This document shows, in pieces, positions 15,990-24,302 of a stretch of 64,000 nucleotides of DNA (the stretch's first letter is position 1; each line of letters opens with the position of its first letter). The position numbers were made by a program, and so were the translations under genes. Under the pieces are notes generated by a model. The model had not been told where the DNA came from. It did no database searches and saw only the letters and a list, made by a program, of their open reading frames with translations. This DNA is from Dyadobacter sp. GTDB taxonomy: Bacteria > Bacteroidota > Bacteroidia > Cytophagales > Spirosomataceae. The stretch lies in NCBI RefSeq assembly GCF_017744695.1, contig NZ_JAGIAS010000001.1, forward strand, positions 248,001 through 312,000, written 5' to 3'.

Positions 15990-17447
15990 TCAGGCGATAA
16001 TCCCTTTCACAAGTTTTCCGGCAACGTCTGTGAGGCGGTAGCGGCGTCCCTGATGCTTGAAAACCAGTTTTTCATGGTCAAGCCCCAGCTGGTTGAGAAT
16101 GGTAGCGTGTAAATCATGAACATGCACCGGGTCCTTAATGATATTATAGCCAAAATCGTCGGTCTGACCATATGAAATTCCGGGCTTGATACCTCCTCCG
16201 GCCATCCAGATCGTAAATGCCCGCGGGTGATGGTCCCGTCCGTAGTCGTCCCTGGAAAACTTGCCCTGGCAATAGTTGGTCCTTCCGAACTCCCCTCCCC
16301 AAATCACCAGGGTTTCGTCCAGCAACCCCCTTTGTTTGAGATCCGTCACAAGTGCTGCGGATGCCTGGTCTACATCCATCGACTGCGCCCTGATTTCCTT
16401 CGGCAAGTTGGAATGGCCGTCCCACCCCTGGTGGTAAAGTTGCACGAATCGCACGCCCTGCTCGGATAGTTTGCGGGCCAGGAGACAATTGGCTGCATAG
16501 GTGCCGGGAACCAGGCAGTCGGGGCCGTACAATTTCACGACCGACTCCGGCTCCTTGCTCATATCCGTAATTTCGGGAACGGCAGCCTGCATCCGGAACG
16601 CCATTTCATATTGCTGGATTTTGGTCACTATCTCCGGATCCTGGTACTCCGCGAAAGTCCCTTCGTTCAATGCCGCCAGTTTGTCGAGCATTTCCCGGCG
16701 CTCGTTTCTGTCCATTCCATCCGGATCACCCAGGTATAGCACAGGGTTTTCTCCACTACTAAATTGCACACCCTGGTGCACAGAATCGAGAAAACCGTTC
16801 GTCCATAACTTGGAATACACGCCCTGGCCATTGCCGATCCCGCGCGAGAGCAAAACACAAAACGCGGGCAGGTTCTGATTTTCGCTGCCGAGCCCGTAAC
16901 TGAGCCAGGCCCCCATACTCGGACGGCTACCCACCTGCGCACCGCTCTGGAAAAAAGTAAGGGCCGGATCATGGTTAATGGCATCCGTATTCATGGACTT
17001 AATGAAACAGAGATCGTCCGCGATCCTTGCCGTGTGAGGGAGCAGTTCGCTCACCCAGGCACCCGAGTTGCCGTGCTGCGCGAAATTGAAAACGGACCCC
17101 GCCAACGGGAAACTGGTCTGATTCGCCGTCATACCTGTCAGCCGTTGCCCTCCCCTGACGGATTCCGGCAGGTTCTCTCCAAACATCTTATTGAGTAGCG
17201 GCTTGTGGTCGAACAGTTCGTACTGAGAGGGTGCACCATTTTGAAAGAGATAAATGACCCGCTTCGCTTTGGGCGCAAAGTGCGGCAAACCCGATACAAT
17301 ATCATTCACGCTCGTTCCCTCACCTCCGTTGAACATGTCAGGGATTAAAAGGGAGCCCAGGGCCGCGCTTCCAATACCCAGACTCACCTTGGACAGGAAG
17401 TGCCTGCGGTTAATATTCATCCCGAAGTCGAAAATGGGCTTTTCCAT
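15990..17447 (-). CDS. DUF1501 domain protein (sulfatase-fold, exported)
   Basis: A 485-residue member of the DUF1501 family, common in Planctomycetes and Cytophagales. It begins with a Tat-like twin-arginine signal (NINRRHFLSKVSLGIGSAALG). Family landmarks are visible: the early AKRVIYLFQNGAPSQYELFDHKP, the central GCL-type stretch, LYHQGWDGHSNLPKEI, and VIWGGEFGRTN followed by GRDHHPRAFTIWMAGGGIKPG, which matches the alkaline-phosphatase/sulfatase superfamily fold with conserved Asp and His residues. It is 26 bp downstream of the PSD1 gene and should be cotranscribed with it. The pair is usually found together; their joint substrate is not known. Periplasmic, folded before export if the Tat signal is real. 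Confidence 0.92.
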   Translation of the reverse strand: MEKPIFDFGMNINRRHFLSKVSLGIGSAALGSLLIPDMFNGGEGTSVNDIVSGLPHFAPKAKRVIYLFQNGAPSQYELFDHKPLLNKMFGENLPESVRGGQRLTGMTANQTSFPLAGSVFNFAQHGNSGAWVSELLPHTARIADDLCFIKSMNTDAINHDPALTFFQSGAQVGSRPSMGAWLSYGLGSENQNLPAFCVLLSRGIGNGQGVYSKLWTNGFLDSVHQGVQFSSGENPVLYLGDPDGMDRNERREMLDKLAALNEGTFAEYQDPEIVTKIQQYEMAFRMQAAVPEITDMSKEPESVVKLYGPDCLVPGTYAANCLLARKLSEQGVRFVQLYHQGWDGHSNLPKEIRAQSMDVDQASAALVTDLKQRGLLDETLVIWGGEFGRTNYCQGKFSRDDYGRDHHPRAFTIWMAGGGIKPGISYGQTDDFGYNIIKDPVHVHDLHATILNQLGLDHEKLVFKHQGRRYRLTDVAGKLVKGIIA

Positions 17448-17473
17448 AGTAGTAAGTCAATACAGCGGGTCTG

Positions 17474-19792
17474 TCAGGATTTGGTGATCGTTTCTTCCAT
17501 GTTGTAAATCGTACTGATAACCCGCATCAATGCTGCCGCCTGGTCCTTTCTAATCCCTTTTTCATGTACGAAATCTCCCACATTCAGCACCTTCACAGCC
17601 TTTTGCTGGTCCTTCGAAAATTTGACGAATTCCGAATTGTAGTAGCCCACCAGCAAGTCGACTTCTTTTTCTGTCGGCTTTCTGCACACAATTTGCTGAA
17701 ATAGCGTCCGCACTTTTTCCTCAACCGACATTTTCCGGCCAACGATCCGTTCCGCGAGCACGCGCGACGCTTCCAGCACCGCCGGGTCATTCAACATGAT
17801 CAGGGCTTGCAGCGGTGTATTGGTTTTTTGGCGTTTTACTTCGCAATGATCCCGGTTGCTGGCGTCGAACACGATCATAGCGGGCGGTGGTAAAGTCATT
17901 TTGATAAAAGTGTACAGCCCCCGCCGGTAGAGTTTGCCCGCCGTATCCTGTACATACTTCGTCAGGTCGCCCCGGTTGGCCGTGCTCCCTTCCCAAAGCC
18001 CCTTTGGCTGATAAGGTTTCACACTAGCCCCTCCTATTTCACGGTTTAACAACCCGCTGGTCGACAAAACAATATCCCGCACCATTTCGGCGGGCACACG
18101 GTAACGCGCCCCGCGCGACAGGTATATATTTTCGGGATCTTTCTCCTCTTTTTCCTTGGTGAGTTTTGAAGACTGGCGGTAGGTGGCTGAAGTAACGATC
18201 TGCTTCACCAGGCGTTTTACATTCCAGCCATGCTTCATGAAGTCGACCGCGAGCCAGTCGAGCAATGCGGGATGCGAAGGCAGGTCTCCCTGCATCCCAA
18301 AATCGCCGGCACTCTTAACGATCCCGCGTCCGAAAAACTCCTGCCATACGCGGTTTACAAATACCCTCGCCGTCAGCGGATTGCTTTTATTGAACATCCA
18401 TCCGGCAAGCCCCACACGGTTTCTTGCATACTTCGTGGTGTCGTACGGCATGACCGATTTTAAACCACTCGCCGTCACAACTCTTCCCGGTGCATCGTAC
18501 ACGCCCCTGTTGAGCACGTGCGTAGGACGGAGCGTGTCGTTTTCGCTCATGACCGAAAGCCAGACGGTGCTTGTGTCTGCACTATTGATAAAATTCAGCA
18601 CGCCTTTTCGTTCCGCGTCCGTCACTTCAAGGATGGGCGCCACGGCTACCCCACCCCGAATTTTGTCCTGCCCTTTTTCCCTGGAATTATTAAAAAAAGC
18701 GAACAACCGGTAGTAATCCTCCTGCGAGATCGGATCATACTTATGGTCGTGACATTGCGCGCATTCCACTGTCAGGCCCATCAGGCCGGAACTGACCGTT
18801 TTGGTTTTGTCCAGATTGTATTCGATGCGGTACTCTTCCAGAATGATGCCGGCCTCTTCATTATACTTATGATTTCGCAGGAAAGCGGTGGCCAAAATCT
18901 GTTCCTTTCCGGCATTGGGCAGCATATCGCCTGCCAGCTGCCAGGTAACGAACCGGTCGTAGGGCATATTCCTGTTGAATGCGCTGATCACCCAATCACG
19001 CCAGGGCCATTGCGTTCTGGAATGATCGTTCTGATAACCAAACGAATCCCCGTAACGTGCTATATCGAGCCAATGTACGGCCATTTTTTCACCATAAGAG
19101 GGCTGGCTCAGGAGCTCGTCGACGACTTTTTCATAATTTTTATCGGTGTCGTCACGCTCAAATCTCTTCTGAAATTCGGGGGAAGGCGCCAGGCCGGTAA
19201 GGTCCAGCGACAGTCTCTTGATCAGTTGGGCTTTCCTCGCGGGCTCGCTCGGTTCCAATCCGACCTCCTCCATTCTGGCGAGTGTGAAGTAGTCAATTTC
19301 ATTTTTAGGCCAATCTTCATCGCTGATTTCCGGCAAGGCGCTTTGTTTCGGAGCAACAAACGCCCAATGCTTTTCGTATTTCGCTCCTTGTGCAATCCAC
19401 TGCTTTAATAGCTCCGTTTCTTCCTTCGTGAGCAATCCCAAATGGGACTCGGGCGTTGGCATTTGATAATCCGCGTCGGCCGAAATAATTCTTTTATAAA
19501 CTTCCGATGCCTCCGGATTACCGGGTACAATGGCAAATCCTTTGCCGTCGCGAAGCTTTGCGTAAGCACTTTCTGCTACGTCCAGTCGCAACCCTGCTTC
19601 ACGGTGCTTGGCGTCTGGTCCATGGCATGCGAAACACTTGTCAGAAAGGATAGGCCTTACCTGGAAGCTGTAAGAAACCTCCCCGGCATTCCGCCCGCCC
19701 TTCTTCGCCTGAATGCACTGAAAGCAGGAAACAGCTGAACCTATCAGTATGATTATTCCGAAAAAAAACTTCGTACAATTCTGCAAGCGCAT
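17474..19792 (-). CDS. PSD1-type planctomycete cytochrome c protein (PSCyt1, DUF1549, DUF1553)
   Basis: A 772-residue exported lipoprotein-like protein (possible lipobox SAVSC, Cys23). A cytochrome-type haem motif CFACH (Cys53, Cys56, His57) starts the PSCyt1 domain, followed by the GPDAKHREAGLRLD sequence typical of it. DUF1549 covers about residues 165-370, and includes a second CxxCH (CAQCH, Cys345-His349). DUF1553 occupies about residues 430-760, with FVNRVWQEFFGRGIV and NTPLQALIMLNDPAVLEASR. Family members are periplasmic, haem-binding and of uncertain chemistry. Cotranscribed with the DUF1501 gene 26 bp downstream. The two CxxCH motifs make covalent c-type haem attachment likely. Confidence 0.93.
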   Translation of the reverse strand: MRLQNCTKFFFGIIILIGSAVSCFQCIQAKKGGRNAGEVSYSFQVRPILSDKCFACHGPDAKHREAGLRLDVAESAYAKLRDGKGFAIVPGNPEASEVYKRIISADADYQMPTPESHLGLLTKEETELLKQWIAQGAKYEKHWAFVAPKQSALPEISDEDWPKNEIDYFTLARMEEVGLEPSEPARKAQLIKRLSLDLTGLAPSPEFQKRFERDDTDKNYEKVVDELLSQPSYGEKMAVHWLDIARYGDSFGYQNDHSRTQWPWRDWVISAFNRNMPYDRFVTWQLAGDMLPNAGKEQILATAFLRNHKYNEEAGIILEEYRIEYNLDKTKTVSSGLMGLTVECAQCHDHKYDPISQEDYYRLFAFFNNSREKGQDKIRGGVAVAPILEVTDAERKGVLNFINSADTSTVWLSVMSENDTLRPTHVLNRGVYDAPGRVVTASGLKSVMPYDTTKYARNRVGLAGWMFNKSNPLTARVFVNRVWQEFFGRGIVKSAGDFGMQGDLPSHPALLDWLAVDFMKHGWNVKRLVKQIVTSATYRQSSKLTKEKEEKDPENIYLSRGARYRVPAEMVRDIVLSTSGLLNREIGGASVKPYQPKGLWEGSTANRGDLTKYVQDTAGKLYRRGLYTFIKMTLPPPAMIVFDASNRDHCEVKRQKTNTPLQALIMLNDPAVLEASRVLAERIVGRKMSVEEKVRTLFQQIVCRKPTEKEVDLLVGYYNSEFVKFSKDQQKAVKVLNVGDFVHEKGIRKDQAAALMRVISTIYNMEETITKS

Positions 19793-19918: not shown

Positions 19919-21142
19919 TTAATAAGATATTCTGATTTGAAGCCCTATGGAGGTGAATTTCAGATTACGGCTGGTAATGCCGCCGACGGGGTAGCGAACC
20001 TGTGGCTCGACCATAATGGCCCTGTTGGGAGTTATCTTCTTTTCCCACAGGATCGACGCATTAAAATGGGTTACCGGGGCAAAAACCGCGCCGGTGCTAC
20101 CACTTGTTAACGGCATATCCTGGGTTGACGCCAGCCCCTCAACTTCCCTGACTTCCCCGTCGTGAAGCGCCAGCGTAGTGGTCACGATTTTGCCTTTCTG
20201 ATACATTTCCCTGAAATGCTCACCCCAGAACAGCGACGATGACACCCCGAAAAGACCGGACAAACTATATCGCGGATTTTGATATAACCTTACCTGAATA
20301 TCAACCGGAATTTCAAGCTCCCACCAATGATAATCGCCGCGATTGAGCCATTTGACAGCGTCTTTGCTAAATACCGGATTCCGGTTGCTCACGTAGACGT
20401 GCTCGCGCATGAGGGCGAGTCCCCCGCGCAGCGAGAACCGGGAAGTCATGGGGAATGTCCCGAAGATTGCCGGCCCCAGGGTAAGCCTGCTTTCGGAGGG
20501 CCTGGCGTAGTTGGCCCGTACAGCCGGGCCTAAACTCAACTGAAAGCCGCGCTGCCTGCGTCCGGCTATATGCTGTTCGCTTTGCTGAATGGCCGGTAGT
20601 TCCAAACTCACTTCGTAAACCGAGGGCCCCATGTTCGGCAATTCTCTCGCCATGTAGGGCCAAACTGGTGCCCCATGAACCGGAGCTATTGATGGGTTGC
20701 CATGCGATGGCGATAAACCGGAAATTACCGGAATCTTCTGCTTTGCTTTGAAGCTGGCTTTATAAGTCGTTGCAGTCGATTCCGGAGCGGTTGTCGTGCT
20801 ATGCGTCCTTCCTCGAACCACATTTCCGTGAGGATGCCGGCCAGAGGGCTTATCAGTTACAGCGATTGCAGCTCTCTCGACAGGTTTAGAAATGGCCGCT
20901 CTGCGTTGGCCGGATCGTGCGTGCTTCCCTCCGGATTCGAGAAAAAACCATGAGCCCGTCAAAATACCTGCCAGGAAAAGGACCAGCGCCCCCACGCGCA
21001 GGGCACCCACAAGTCTCCGGCGCCTTTCCTTTTTGAGCCTGTGCTGTTCGAAAAGCGACCACGAGTCATCGCGAAAGCCCGCTTCAAACCCGGCCAGCTT
21101 GTCTTTTACCTTCCGAAACGCGTCCTCATTCTCCATATTCAT
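19919..21142 (-). CDS. Single-pass membrane protein with barrel-like C-terminus, sigma-linked
   Basis: A 407-residue protein that I do not recognise at family level. The N-terminal cytoplasmic part (residues 1-45, DDSWSLFEQHRLKKERRRR) resembles the start of Bacteroidota anti-sigma-like proteins. One transmembrane helix follows at about 48-68 (GALRVGALVLFLAGILTGSWFF), then a Pro/Thr/Ser-rich linker to about 140. The C-terminal 230 residues have repeated amphipathic strands and end in an aromatic residue (FTSIGLQIRISY), as in outer membrane barrels of the porin/OMP_b-brl type. The gene overlaps the upstream sigma gene by about 17 bp (ATG at 21142; ATG at 21136 also possible), which implies translational coupling and argues for a role in controlling that sigma factor. 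Confidence 0.7.
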   Translation of the reverse strand: MNMENEDAFRKVKDKLAGFEAGFRDDSWSLFEQHRLKKERRRRLVGALRVGALVLFLAGILTGSWFFLESGGKHARSGQRRAAISKPVERAAIAVTDKPSGRHPHGNVVRGRTHSTTTAPESTATTYKASFKAKQKIPVISGLSPSHGNPSIAPVHGAPVWPYMARELPNMGPSVYEVSLELPAIQQSEQHIAGRRQRGFQLSLGPAVRANYARPSESRLTLGPAIFGTFPMTSRFSLRGGLALMREHVYVSNRNPVFSKDAVKWLNRGDYHWWELEIPVDIQVRLYQNPRYSLSGLFGVSSSLFWGEHFREMYQKGKIVTTTLALHDGEVREVEGLASTQDMPLTSGSTGAVFAPVTHFNASILWEKKITPNRAIMVEPQVRYPVGGITSRNLKFTSIGLQIRISY

Positions 21143-21698
21143 TTCCAAATTTTCGCTGTAACATCAACGACTTTATCCGTTGCTTTCCCCGCGTCAGATA
21201 GGTCCTGCTGGTGCCCGCCGGGAATCCAAGCATCTCTCCGATCTCCTGGTGGCTGTATCCTTCGATTTCGTACAAGTTGAATACCAATCTCTGGCTTTCC
21301 GGCAACTCCTGTAACAGCCGGATGATCTCCTCCGCGGAAAGCCTGTCGATCACATCCTCCGCGATCGTCGCATCTTCTTCGGCAATGTCGGCGGTGATTT
21401 TTTCCATCCTACGCCGCTCTTTTCGATAGTGGTCAAGTGCCGTGTTAACCACAATTCTTCTCAACCAGGCCCTGAATACGAGTATTTCCCCGCTGGTCAG
21501 CATATGCTCAAAGACTTTCAGGAAACTGTCGTTTAAAATTTCCTGCGCTTGCTGATCCGAACTGGAATACCTTAAACATATTCCCATTACATAGCCGTAA
21601 AAATGTCTGAATACCTTTTCCTGGCAACGCGCGTCACCGCGTCGACAGCCTTCGATCCATTCCGATTCCAGAAAATGTTGCAGAACAAGGGTATTCAA
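21126..21698 (-). CDS. ECF RNA polymerase sigma factor, likely TTG start
   Basis: A 190-residue sigma-70 family protein. Region 2 is around residues 25-90 (FRHFYGYVMGICLRYSSSDQQAQEILNDSFLKVFEH), followed by region 4 (LPESQRLVFNLYEIEGYSHQEIGEMLGFPAGTSRTYLTRGK). There is no ATG near the N-terminus: the first in-frame ATG is at codon 38, inside region 2, and the next upstream stop is at 21747, so translation probably starts at the TTG at 21698. It partners with the overlapping downstream membrane protein, probably its anti-sigma factor. No STN-type SusC is nearby, so this is a different regulatory type from the two SusCD-linked sigma factors in the window. Confidence 0.9.
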   Translation of the reverse strand: MNTLVLQHFLESEWIEGCRRGDARCQEKVFRHFYGYVMGICLRYSSSDQQAQEILNDSFLKVFEHMLTSGEILVFRAWLRRIVVNTALDHYRKERRRMEKITADIAEEDATIAEDVIDRLSAEEIIRLLQELPESQRLVFNLYEIEGYSHQEIGEMLGFPAGTSRTYLTRGKQRIKSLMLQRKFGNEYGE

Positions 21699-21716
21699 AG
21701 TATGAGAAAATTTAAT

Positions 21717-21743
21717 CGCCGACCGCCCAAAGGGCAGCCGGCG
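21717..21743 (-). terminator. Terminator after the lipoprotein gene
   Basis: A 12-bp stem with AAA loop (two wobble pairs on the minus-strand RNA; CGCCGACCGCCC and GGGCAGCCGGCG) lies between the lipoprotein stop at 21760 and the sigma gene start. The minus-strand sequence after it is ATTAAATTTT, moderately T-rich. Confidence 0.55.
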
Positions 21744-21759
21744 CGATTACCTTGCTTGA

Positions 21760-22239
21760 TTATAAATTCGAGACATTGCCATTCTCATCCACTACCTTAT
21801 CGGCCACTTTGGATCCATTGGACACGGTCACCATAAAGTCAGTTGGATTGAACGAATCACCGATCAATTTTTTGAGGTCGACCTGCAAGGTGTACGACCC
21901 TTTGGGCTGGCAAGAATCGTTGTTGCTCTCATTGGCCACTACAAGGTTGATCTGCTGGGGATAGGACAGCAATACCACTCCGTTCCAGATTGTTTTGAAG
22001 TCGTCCGCTGAACATCCGCCGGCCACATCGATCGCCAGGGTGTTTCCGGTAAGCACGATTTTCGAGATTTCAAAAGGGACACCCTTAGAATCCGCCCTGC
22101 CTTTCATGATCCGCTCGTAATCACCCTTGAGCTCATTGCCCGGGTCGGGCTTGACATTCTCGTTGTTGTGATCGCATGCGCCGAACGAGAGCAGTGACAG
22201 CAGCAATAGGCCGTTTCCAAACAGTCTGATATTTTTCAT
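21760..22239 (-). CDS. Hypothetical lipoprotein
   Basis: A 159-residue lipoprotein starting at the ATG at 22239 that directly precedes the signal (MKNIRLFGNGLLLLSLLSFGAC, lipobox FGAC). An upstream in-frame start at 22266 adds nine residues. Mature part: about 20 disordered residues, then a compact domain with predicted beta strands and two Cys (in GGCSADD and DSCQPKG) that may pair. I recognise no family. It is transcribed divergently from the MNIO peptide operon; whether the two share a regulatory region of about 230 bp is the only link visible. Confidence 0.65.
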   Translation of the reverse strand: MKNIRLFGNGLLLLSLLSFGACDHNNENVKPDPGNELKGDYERIMKGRADSKGVPFEISKIVLTGNTLAIDVAGGCSADDFKTIWNGVVLLSYPQQINLVVANESNNDSCQPKGSYTLQVDLKKLIGDSFNPTDFMVTVSNGSKVADKVVDENGNVSNL

Positions 22240-22473
22240 GGTTTTGAAAGATTTGATTTCAAACACATGACGTATCAGCCGGCATAAACGCTACAGAGAG
22301 CCGGAAACCCTAGCGATTTGAAGATTGGAACGTGAATGCTACTAGTCAAATCTTGCCTATTGGCGCAGGGGAACAGGAGGTTGTGGAAATTTTAATCAAA
22401 ACCGGTTACAACCAAATTCATCATAATTACATCTCTTCCGTGTATTCCCTGATTCACCTTAACAAACTCCCTT

Positions 22474-22629
22474 ATGAAAATCTCAAAATCGGTATTACAG
22501 GCAGTGGCTGTTGCGGTTACAGTTACTGCACTTGCTACGGCCTGCACAGACAATGCTGTTGGACCAAACGGCGAAAAAATAACCAAGAACAAAAAAATCG
22601 ATCCTTGTCCGGCCTGCGGAATGGGGTGA
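22474..22629 (+). CDS. MNIO-class RiPP precursor peptide (chryseobasin-like)
   Basis: A 51-codon gene that begins with ATG at 22474 and ends with TGA at 22627-22629. Residues 1-24 form a Lys-containing, hydrophobic N-terminus (MKISKSVLQAVAVAVTVTAL, then ATAC) like a signal or lipoprotein leader. A polar middle follows (26-43), and the C-terminus is DPCPACGMG, giving a Cys-Pro-Ala-Cys-Gly-Met-Gly tail (Cys45, Cys48). The stop lies 13 bp before the DUF692/MNIO gene on the same strand. A short Cys-containing peptide directly before a DUF692 oxidase is the standard arrangement for MNIO-modified RiPPs, and the MKISKS leader plus CPACGMG tail resembles what I recall of Bacteroidota chryseobasin-related peptides. 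Modification of the cysteines is inferred. This gene is easy to miss because of its size. Confidence 0.85.
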   Translation: MKISKSVLQAVAVAVTVTALATACTDNAVGPNGEKITKNKKIDPCPACGMG

Positions 22630-22642
22630 TTCTTACGTATCC

Positions 22643-23773
22643 ATGTCTGAAATCTACTCAGCGGTCGCCTGTAACCTGGACACCCATATTTTACGAGCGG
22701 CCCTGCCTTTGTTTGAACAGGAAAAGGTGGAGGCCATTGAGTGGTCCTTTGACACACTTTACAAATTCGACGAGATCCCGCCCTGGTTTACCGACCTGGT
22801 GAGCGAATTCAGCAAACAGAACCGGTTAATGGGCCACGGCGTGTATTTTTCCTTGTTTTCCGGCAAATGGTCTTCCGGGCAGCAGGAATGGCTTCGCAAA
22901 CTAAAAAAGCTATCCGCCGAGTTCAATTTCGACCATATTACCGAGCATTTCGGTTTCATGACCGGCGAAGATTTCCATAAAGGCGCGCCGATCGGCATTC
23001 CGCTTACTCCCCGGACACTGGCGCTGGGGCAAGATCGTCTGCAAAGGATCCAGGATGCATGTCAATGTCCGGTAGGGTTGGAAAACCTCGCCTTCTCCTA
23101 TTCCATCGATGAAGTCAGGAAGCATGGTGTCTTTTTAGACCAGCTGGTAGAAAGTGTCAATGGTTTCATCATTCTTGACCTGCACAACATCTACTGCCAG
23201 GTTCACAATTTCAACATTGATTTTGTCGATATTTTAAAGCTGTACCCGCTCAATAAGGTGCGGGAAATCCATATTTCGGGCGGGAGCTGGGAAGATACGG
23301 CTACGCCCCAGGGTAAGCCCGTGCGGCGCGACACGCACGACGAATCGGTACCGGAAATCGTATTTGAATTCCTCGGCAATGCTATTCCCCAATGCCCTAA
23401 TCTGAAATTCGTCGTGCTCGAACAAATGGGTACGGCCCTCTCCACCTATGCCAGTCAGGCCGCTTTCCAGTCTGATTTTCTTCGCATGGACAGCATAGTC
23501 AAATCGCTGGCACGGAAATTTGACCCGATACCAGAACGCATGTTTGCCCCATTGGCAGCATCCTTGAACGCCATTCCGTTGGAAGATGCCGATTTATATC
23601 AACAACAAATTCAACTATCTTATATCCTGGAAACAGCTGGAAACGTCAGTGAAGCAAGGGCAATGCTGCTCGCGTCCGACCTGCGCAACACCGCTTGGGA
23701 AGTTGAAAACTGGGCCCCATACATGCTGGAAACCGCCATATCCATTGCCCGGAAGTGGAAAAATGGCTTTTAA
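22643..23773 (+). CDS. DUF692/MNIO family multinuclear iron-dependent oxidase
   Basis: A 376-residue DUF692 protein, a TIM-barrel enzyme that binds two or three irons and modifies cysteines in short precursor peptides (MbnB and ChrH are known members). Typical ligand-containing segments are present in order: GHGVYFS (His65), TEHFGFM (Glu101, His102), LENLAFSY (Glu147, Asn148), ILDLHNIY (Asp179, His181, Asn182), REIHISGG (His210), DTHDE (His232, Asp233, Glu234) and VLEQMG (Glu260). The barrel should end near residue 290; about 85 further residues, rich in helix-forming sequence, extend beyond the usual length of about 290. It follows the precursor gene after 13 bp and precedes the VOC gene by 19 bp. 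No DUF2063/RRE partner gene is visible, so the extension may do that job. Confidence 0.9.
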   Translation: MSEIYSAVACNLDTHILRAALPLFEQEKVEAIEWSFDTLYKFDEIPPWFTDLVSEFSKQNRLMGHGVYFSLFSGKWSSGQQEWLRKLKKLSAEFNFDHITEHFGFMTGEDFHKGAPIGIPLTPRTLALGQDRLQRIQDACQCPVGLENLAFSYSIDEVRKHGVFLDQLVESVNGFIILDLHNIYCQVHNFNIDFVDILKLYPLNKVREIHISGGSWEDTATPQGKPVRRDTHDESVPEIVFEFLGNAIPQCPNLKFVVLEQMGTALSTYASQAAFQSDFLRMDSIVKSLARKFDPIPERMFAPLAASLNAIPLEDADLYQQQIQLSYILETAGNVSEARAMLLASDLRNTAWEVENWAPYMLETAISIARKWKNGF

Positions 23774-23792
23774 TTTTCAAACAGACAGACAT

Positions 23793-24236
23793 ATGGCTAA
23801 CAAACTACTGAGAATGGATAATATCGGCATCGTCGTGGAATCCCTCGATAATGCCATTTCATTTTTCACGGAACTGGGAATGATTCTCGAAGGGCGTGCG
23901 ACGATCGAAGGCGAATGGTCTGGTCGCGTTACCGGCCTGGCTTCACAGCAGGTCGAGATCGCCATGATGGTCACCCCCGACGGTCACAGCCGGCTTGAAT
24001 TATCGAGATTTCTTACGCCTCCCGTTGAATCGGATCACCGTAATGCGCCTGTGAATGCGTTAGGATACCTGCGGGCCATGTTCGCCGTGGAAGACATTGA
24101 TGAAATGGTAGCCCGACTTTCCAGGCATGGCGGCCAGCTGGTGGGTGAAGTGGTTCAATATCAGGACTCGTACCGGCTCTGTTATATGCGTGGCGCCGAA
24201 GGAATTCTTATTGGCCTGGCGGAGGAACTGGGTTAG
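23793..24236 (+). CDS. VOC family (glyoxalase/bleomycin resistance) protein
   Basis: A 147-residue vicinal-oxygen-chelate protein, start at the ATG at 23793. Two beta-alpha-beta-beta-beta modules can be traced: the first begins RMDNIGIVVESLDNAISFFTELG, the second LGYLRAMFAVEDIDEMVARLSRHGG and ends MRGAEGILIGLAEELG. The family binds a divalent metal with His and Glu residues; here Glu in LEL (near residue 70) and a Glu in the last strand are candidates. It is the third gene of the operon with the precursor peptide and the MNIO oxidase, 19 bp downstream of the latter, followed by a strong hairpin. Role there is unknown: it could modify or carry the peptide, protect the cell, or be incidental. 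Confidence 0.88.
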   Translation: MANKLLRMDNIGIVVESLDNAISFFTELGMILEGRATIEGEWSGRVTGLASQQVEIAMMVTPDGHSRLELSRFLTPPVESDHRNAPVNALGYLRAMFAVEDIDEMVARLSRHGGQLVGEVVQYQDSYRLCYMRGAEGILIGLAEELG

Positions 24237-24269
24237 TTCCCTCACATCGGTTTCAGGACATTAAACAGC

Positions 24270-24302
24270 GAAGCCCGGCAAACGTGGAGTTTGCCGGGCT
24301 TC
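24270..24302. terminator. Perfect 14-bp hairpin terminator
   Basis: GAAGCCCGGCAAAC pairs exactly with GTTTGCCGGGCTTC around a five-base loop (GTGGA). It is 33 bp after the VOC stop and 34 bp after the convergent SusD stop, so it can end transcription from both sides. The T-run after it is weak. Confidence 0.75.

Follow-up and report, generated by a model that had tools for sequence, protein, structure and literature searches.

The window, a 64-kb stretch of the genome of a Dyadobacter strain, hosts a compact two-gene operon. A 51-codon peptide ORF is followed after 13 bp by a gene encoding an MNIO enzyme; a co-directional VOC gene starts 19 bp further on, and a hairpin comes after it. The features discussed in this work are the following.

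22406..22434, + strand: predicted ECF-sigma-type promoter, with a -35-like box TTACAACCA at 22406-22414 and a -10-like ATCT at 22431-22434 (sequence, conservation).
22474..22629, + strand: DybA-type precursor of 51 aa, ATG start (NF050125 match, conserved frame).
22643..23773, + strand: DybH-type MNIO (DUF692/PF05114) of 376 aa (Pfam, NCBIfam, AF2 model).
23540-23770, + strand: C-terminal helical domain of the MNIO, residues about 300-376 (AF2 model).
23793..24236, + strand: VOC/glyoxalase-superfamily gene, from the ATG at 23793 (PF13669 and PF00903 above cut-off).
24270..24302, unstranded: perfect hairpin, terminator-like on both strands (14-bp perfect stem, folding energy).
19919..22266, - strand: small lipoprotein, ECF sigma factor and 409-aa putative anti-sigma; context outside the operon, divergent from it.
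C12:385394-385954 of the window genome (G000): genus-wide ECF sigma gene (orthology, element upstream).

This anatomy, 51-codon ORF, the two short gaps and perfect hairpin, had been laid out in the original prediction, and is borne out by the ORF coordinates and by folding of the hairpin. The hairpin separates the convergent VOC and SusD genes, and folds at -31.8 kcal/mol (z -7.94); equal stability was reached in none of 200 shuffles. Sigma-70 consensus promoters near the operon are not in excess over chance. On the opposite strand, a DUF1501 gene resides beside a PSD1/PSCyt1/PSCyt2 cytochrome-type protein (15990-19792), and the pair is kept at the site in two relatives. Pairs of this kind are best known from Planctomycetes. 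The 409-aa putative anti-sigma has one transmembrane stretch and a C-terminus which is beta-barrel-like by eye and has no Pfam match. The adjacent ECF island (21126-22266, - strand) was rejected as a general dedicated regulator of the operon, because it is missing, along with the rest of the divergent 19919-22266 stretch, between the same neighbours in G017 and G027, relatives of the D. jiangsuensis and D. fermentans type. A partnership of the operon with SusC and SusD was similarly rejected, since the SusD/SusC genes downstream run towards it; neither dyb nor VOC genes were found near close SusD/SusC orthologues in five other genomes (G010, G062, G034, G032 and G063). An association with SusCD is described in PMC12636315.

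The peptide, MKISKSVLQAVAVAVTVTALATAC-TDNAVGPNGEKITKNKKID-PCPACGMG, matches over residues 1-51 the NCBIfam model NF050125 ChrA_rel_RiPP, titled 'chryseobasin-related MNIO class RiPP peptide', with 65.1 bits (E 6.9e-18) against a curated cut-off of 40 bits. A comparison with MNIO-class precursor families had been recommended in the original prediction, and the match, along with that of the enzyme to PF05114, upholds the notion of an MNIO RiPP operon related to chryseobasin. The cysteines of the CPACGMG tail, correctly numbered Cys45 and Cys48, were rightly singled out as the expected target of modification; a third one, Cys24 in the lipobox LATAC, had been overlooked. Cys24 follows a hydrophobic stretch (KISKSVLQAVAVAVTVTALATAC24, read directly from the sequence). 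Since it is the lipobox cysteine, the precursor is predicted to be a lipoprotein-RiPP hybrid, or DAG-RiPP.

A peptide ORF ending in CPxCGxG is located directly upstream of the MNIO gene in all 24 full-length loci of the searched relatives. For named Bacteroidota, the best 80 of the 216 loci confirmed were taken; one or two such peptides precede the gene in 78 of these, and none in the two others (L137, L151). The frame is therefore not a product of chance. The original prediction had staked itself on the conservation of frame and tail in relatives, and passed. Among the 87 peptides from the named loci, 63 end in CPACGMG and 78 pass the lipobox filter; the remaining nine have a cysteine at the lipobox place too, with an odd preceding residue or a different start. 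Two CPxCGxG precursor genes lie before one MNIO gene in nine of the 78 loci (L123, L130, L131, L136, L140, L153, L166, L168 and L181). The pattern CPxCG(F/L/I/M/V)G-stop occurs at 28 places in 25 of 59 genomes, 25 beside an MNIO gene and three elsewhere, including one on C4 of G037; at two MNIO-distant sites (G010 C36, G013 C14) no ORF of at least 25 aa ends in the tail. In the window genome the one exact match to the tail is the dyb operon, and 11 matches with one mismatch were listed.

The signal peptide MKISKSVLQAVAVAV (residues 1-15) is strikingly uniform, with a mean pairwise identity of 0.85 over 27 Dyadobacter precursors (L078-L116). In ten genomes the same residues are 0.81 identical, compared with 0.37 in one control lipoprotein (8 rows) and 0.51-0.76 in four other exported proteins, a small set of controls. 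A cause at the nucleotide (RNA) level is unsupported, as synonymous sites vary freely: over 13 conserved N-terminal codons synonymous diversity is 0.51, versus 0.58 expected from the MNIO gene. Such conservation runs counter to the relaxed selection which PMC12636315 expects on the signal peptide.

The enzyme scores 102.1 bits against Pfam PF05114 MbnB_TglH_ChrH (cut-off 25), as fits a TIM-barrel MNIO, and 400.2 bits over residues 13-373 against NF050165 MNIO_ChrH. As the latter score stays below the equivalog cut-off of 600, the enzyme is, judged by its sequence, a DybH-like relative, and not ChrH itself. The AF2 model (pLDDT 88.3, pTM 0.90) consists of a TIM barrel followed by three extra C-terminal helices (316-331, 335-344, 359-371), and finds TglH and MbnB as best PDB matches in a fold search; a profile of 24 relatives picks TglH (8hci) among PDB sequences with E 1.3e-16. 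The fused C-terminal extension was at first suggested as a possible distinguishing feature, but a C-terminal helical domain is present across the ChrH family (PMC12636315).

The closest described system is the DybA/DybH pair of Dyadobacter crusticola DSM 16708, reconstituted in a bioRxiv 2025 report (PMC12636315). DybH removes 4 Da from CPACGMG, forming a macrocycle and a hydantoin with no partner protein, and in E. coli the D. crusticola orthologue receives a diacylglycerol and an N-acyl group on the lipobox cysteine; the function of the product is unclear according to the same report. The D. crusticola locus (L113) encodes an MNIO 67% identical to the window enzyme, and a peptide which agrees with the published DybA in Met26/Asp27, Ala46 and the 13-residue LysC fragment carrying Cys7 and Cys10. 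Genus, two-gene order, lipobox cysteine, CPACGMG tail, C-terminal helical domain and partner-free MNIO are common to both systems. The window operon differs in the VOC gene following the MNIO, and, by an unscored estimate, the peptides of 50 and 51 residues are set apart by linker and signal differences amounting to about 40 residues. The locus had been rated the best candidate for an undescribed system. This no longer holds, because DybA/DybH of a 67% relative has been characterised in print, and NF050125 is matched.

The chryseobasin cluster chrAHIEP of Chryseobacterium (PMC10214503) similarly features a CPACGMG tail and a ChrH-type MNIO. However, a Pfam scan of nine neighbouring proteins revealed no DUF1772 (ChrI), epimerase (ChrE) or M42 peptidase (ChrP), the window precursor has a lipoprotein signal rather than a signal-peptidase-I signal, and the expected product is unmethylated. 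The mass shift of the ChrH product is +10 Da, versus -4 Da for DybH. An MNIO enzyme, a Cys-rich tail and a lipoprotein signal would also suit a bufferin- or oxazolin-like lipopeptide which binds copper or other metals, and lipidated oxazolins exist (PMC12636315). That the precursor is of this kind is nonetheless extremely unlikely. It has no EGKCG motif; the enzyme reaches 86 of 310 bits with the BufB model and 73 of 360 bits with the HvfB model, far under the cut-offs; and the orthologous DybA/DybH product is described as having no aromatic chromophore (PMC12636315).

The same report bears on the VOC gene, which had been suggested as possibly setting the operon apart. DybH works alone (PMC12636315), and VOC adjoins MNIO in three of the 24 full-length loci (G000, G017, G027) and in two of the 80 named ones (D. 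jiangsuensis and D. fermentans), and hence is not a conserved partner. The words VOC, glyoxalase and promoter are absent from the main text of PMC12636315. The position of the gene, co-directional and 19 bp after MNIO, and the adjacency kept in three species, as well as in D. jiangsuensis and D. fermentans, would fit a dedicated tailoring partner in a subclade, which opens or protects the ring or handles the free thiol in a three-gene dyb variant. We regard this as very unlikely, as the gene is not beside MNIO in 21 of the 24 full-length and 78 of the 80 named loci, and the precursor is equally conserved in loci devoid of VOC. A VOC homologue was found in 19 of 59 genomes, in 16 of which no MNIO gene is adjacent; one of these (G028) has a fragment only. 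In the 15-20 kb stretches taken around the 15 other VOC loci, the fragment left out, no MNIO gene is found. Homologues located elsewhere share 72-86% identity, whether or not the genome has an MNIO gene. On this distribution VOC was rejected as a conserved partner. Adjacent to MNIO in just 3 of 24 full-length loci, the gene is a probable bystander, co-transcribed in one subclade.

Full-length MNIO relatives reside in 24 of 59 searched genomes, and in 27 of 48 genus genomes after a further search; in two genomes (G024, G050) only a distant match (23-27%) was found. One genome (G030) carries, besides an intact copy, a second dyb copy on C62 (L101) in which MNIO is interrupted. Among named relatives, identity to the window locus is 85% in D. 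fermentans and D. jiangsuensis, and 67% in D. crusticola. Clustered by their neighbours, 23 Dyadobacter loci fall into at least nine settings: ten share the same two flanking gene families, eight fall into two trios and a pair, and five are singletons. The minimal mobile unit is the precursor-MNIO pair. The distances of MNIO and of the genus-wide ECF protein are only moderately correlated (r 0.59; 91 pairs, 14 genomes), which establishes neither frequent transfer nor a purely vertical descent.

A short element accompanies the pair through these settings. TT(A/C)CAAC-N18-(A/G)TC, at fixed spacing, precedes the peptide gene in all 27 Dyadobacter copies examined, in at least nine gene neighbourhoods. 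The set comprises 22 G loci, L104 and four further named loci; L100, from another genus, and the broken copy L101 were excluded. In 26 of the 27 regions the element reads TTACAAC-N-A-N17-TC and lies 54-105 bases ahead of the ATG; its seven-base box, the A and the TC never vary, and the spacer shows no conservation. The last one (L099) has TTCCAAC, one mismatch, at the same spacing. The exact form TTACAACCA-N16-RTCW occurs a single time in the 64-kb window, at 22406-22434. The primary promoter consensus of Bacteroidota is TTTG-N16-21-TAnnTTTG, and it was found within 150 bp in none of the 27 Dyadobacter regions. Among 63 upstream regions from other genera, spacings 17 and 18 each gave 11 occurrences of CAACC-N-GTC, and all remaining spacings from 10 to 23 a single one between them; in 20 resamplings of the sequences the best spacing averaged 0.35 occurrences. 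With a relaxed pattern the element is seen before only 28 of 63 loci outside Dyadobacter.

The element is also found in front of ECF sigma genes. Two of the sites inspected (L315, L334) precede one, and TT(A/C)CAAC-N18-GTC is upstream of the genus-wide ECF gene at all 30 loci examined. Each of the 48 genus genomes has exactly one orthologue of this gene at E <= 1e-60, with 73-100% identity. Boxes at fixed spacing, with an AAC core and a (G)TC, which a sigma factor shares with its own gene are the usual pattern of autoregulated ECF factors. Two such boxes are common to 27 of 27 dyb and 30 of 30 ECF loci, and the element at 22406-22434 is most likely an ECF-sigma promoter. The link which it establishes between dyb and ECF is firm, at the level of sequence, within Dyadobacter. 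The element was identified computationally, and ECF paralogues are numerous (35 to 100 first-look candidates in each genus genome, and several matches per genome). The sites could thus be ordinary transcription-factor sites, or promoters of another ECF paralogue, the genus-wide ECF not being the regulator. We consider this rather unlikely, given that fixed spacing, AAC core upstream and (G)TC downstream at 30 of 30 ECF loci are what an autoregulated ECF would display. In 24 non-Dyadobacter genomes, 30 best-ECF loci were analyzed. A relaxed element precedes both dyb and ECF genes in five (Spirosoma fluviale, Fibrella, Fibrivirga and two Pontibacter), and in some others one of the two only; in six Chitinophaga genomes it was found before neither the dyb genes nor the best ECF match. 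The link is only suggestive in the wider family of Dyadobacter, and on these data goes no further.

In the window genome the ECF gene is followed by genes for a 516-aa protein, a serpin-family lipoprotein and an LVIVD-repeat lipoprotein. The serpin-family gene carries its own copy of the element, and the LVIVD gene carries one in other genomes. The 516-aa putative anti-sigma matches OMP_b-brl_2 at 295-482, above cut-off; by eye, it has an N-terminal soluble part, one transmembrane stretch and a long low-complexity linker. At L380 (5870-7420 and neighbours) the cluster includes the ECF, an anti-sigma with an OMP beta-barrel, the serpin and LVIVD-repeat lipoproteins, an outer-membrane-type protein and a small lipoprotein. 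An ECF gene followed by a putative anti-sigma with transmembrane stretch, linker and C-terminal barrel is reminiscent of ECF21/Dma (Das/Dma) of Bacteroides thetaiotaomicron, which controls the formation of outer-membrane vesicles (PMC13088901). The likeness is one of domain layout.

How far the element extends was monitored in the 48 genus genomes. TTACAACCA-N16-RTCW has 221 matches, versus 47 of the reversed pattern and 80 of a wrong-spacing control, with the same boxes three bases closer. Among the matches listed, 95 of the 221 were inspected, dyb sites being mostly excluded: 63 are upstream of a gene, 25 inside genes, and seven have no downstream gene. The lipobox filter is passed by 37 of 60 downstream genes (three dyb sites excluded), versus 41 of 630 background genes, taken from 42 neighbourhood loci rather than from whole genomes. 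The excess is significant by site (Fisher p 4e-24, the sites being partly orthologous) and by family, 10 of 21 being mostly lipoprotein (p 7e-7). The filter misses some obvious lipoproteins, among them the LVIVD family. At the wrong spacing, 23 of 30 sites inspected out of 80 are inside genes, and none of six upstream sites passed the filter; one wrong-spacing site (L430) failed it, yet looks lipoprotein-like. The predicted regulon includes a non-lipoprotein member as well, a gene which by eye is glycosyltransferase-like and is preceded by the element in six genomes (L281, L232, L238, L323, L328, L344). Since the element is common to dyb, the genus-wide ECF gene and many lipoprotein genes, the dyb operon probably belongs to an ECF-sigma lipoprotein regulon. 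In the open-access literature searched, no paper was found that links MNIO operons to a sigma factor.

The operon is thus very likely an orthologue of the dyb operon, directing the VOC-independent production of a macrocyclised lipopeptide from an ECF-sigma promoter common to envelope lipoprotein genes. Chemistry and lipidation have been observed in orthologues (PMC12636315), and by analogy would apply to the window copy; the promoter role of the element and the identity of the sigma factor recognising it we infer from the sequence features described above. Transcription would start from TTACAACCA-N16-ATCT, common to envelope lipoprotein genes and the genus-wide ECF gene. In the cytoplasm MNIO would bind the C-terminal CPACGMG of the precursor, and by a four-electron oxidation (-4 Da) close a macrocycle between Cys45 and the former Cys48 and build the hydantoin ring, leaving one thiol free. 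The modified precursor would be exported via its signal peptide and diacylglycerated at Cys24; cleavage by signal peptidase II and N-acylation would then yield a lipopeptide anchored in the membrane and bearing the modified tail. The process would not depend on VOC.

The dyb lipopeptide system was already known; its apparent joint control with envelope lipoproteins by one dedicated sigma factor seems to be new. A regulon that senses the envelope probably has the lipopeptide among its outputs, because the promoter is shared with lipoprotein genes, and the ECF gene lies beside a putative anti-sigma of the transmembrane/outer-membrane-barrel type. A broader proposal, evenly poised in our judgement, is that in Dyadobacter and part of the wider family the dyb peptide belongs to an envelope-lipoprotein ECF regulon under a Das/Dma-like pair, the anti-sigma spanning from cytoplasm to outer membrane. 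If so, the dyb lipopeptide would take part in a response related to envelope sensing or to vesicles, as its output or even, through a feedback loop, as the ligand that is sensed. This would be the first functional assignment for the DybA-type RiPP family, and the conserved signal peptide would be part of the function. The promoter element provides a first lead to function, as it connects the dyb operon with a defined group of lipoprotein genes and a candidate sigma factor. When and why the lipopeptide is produced may therefore be tested through one regulator, and the element offers a route to the regulon in other Bacteroidota.
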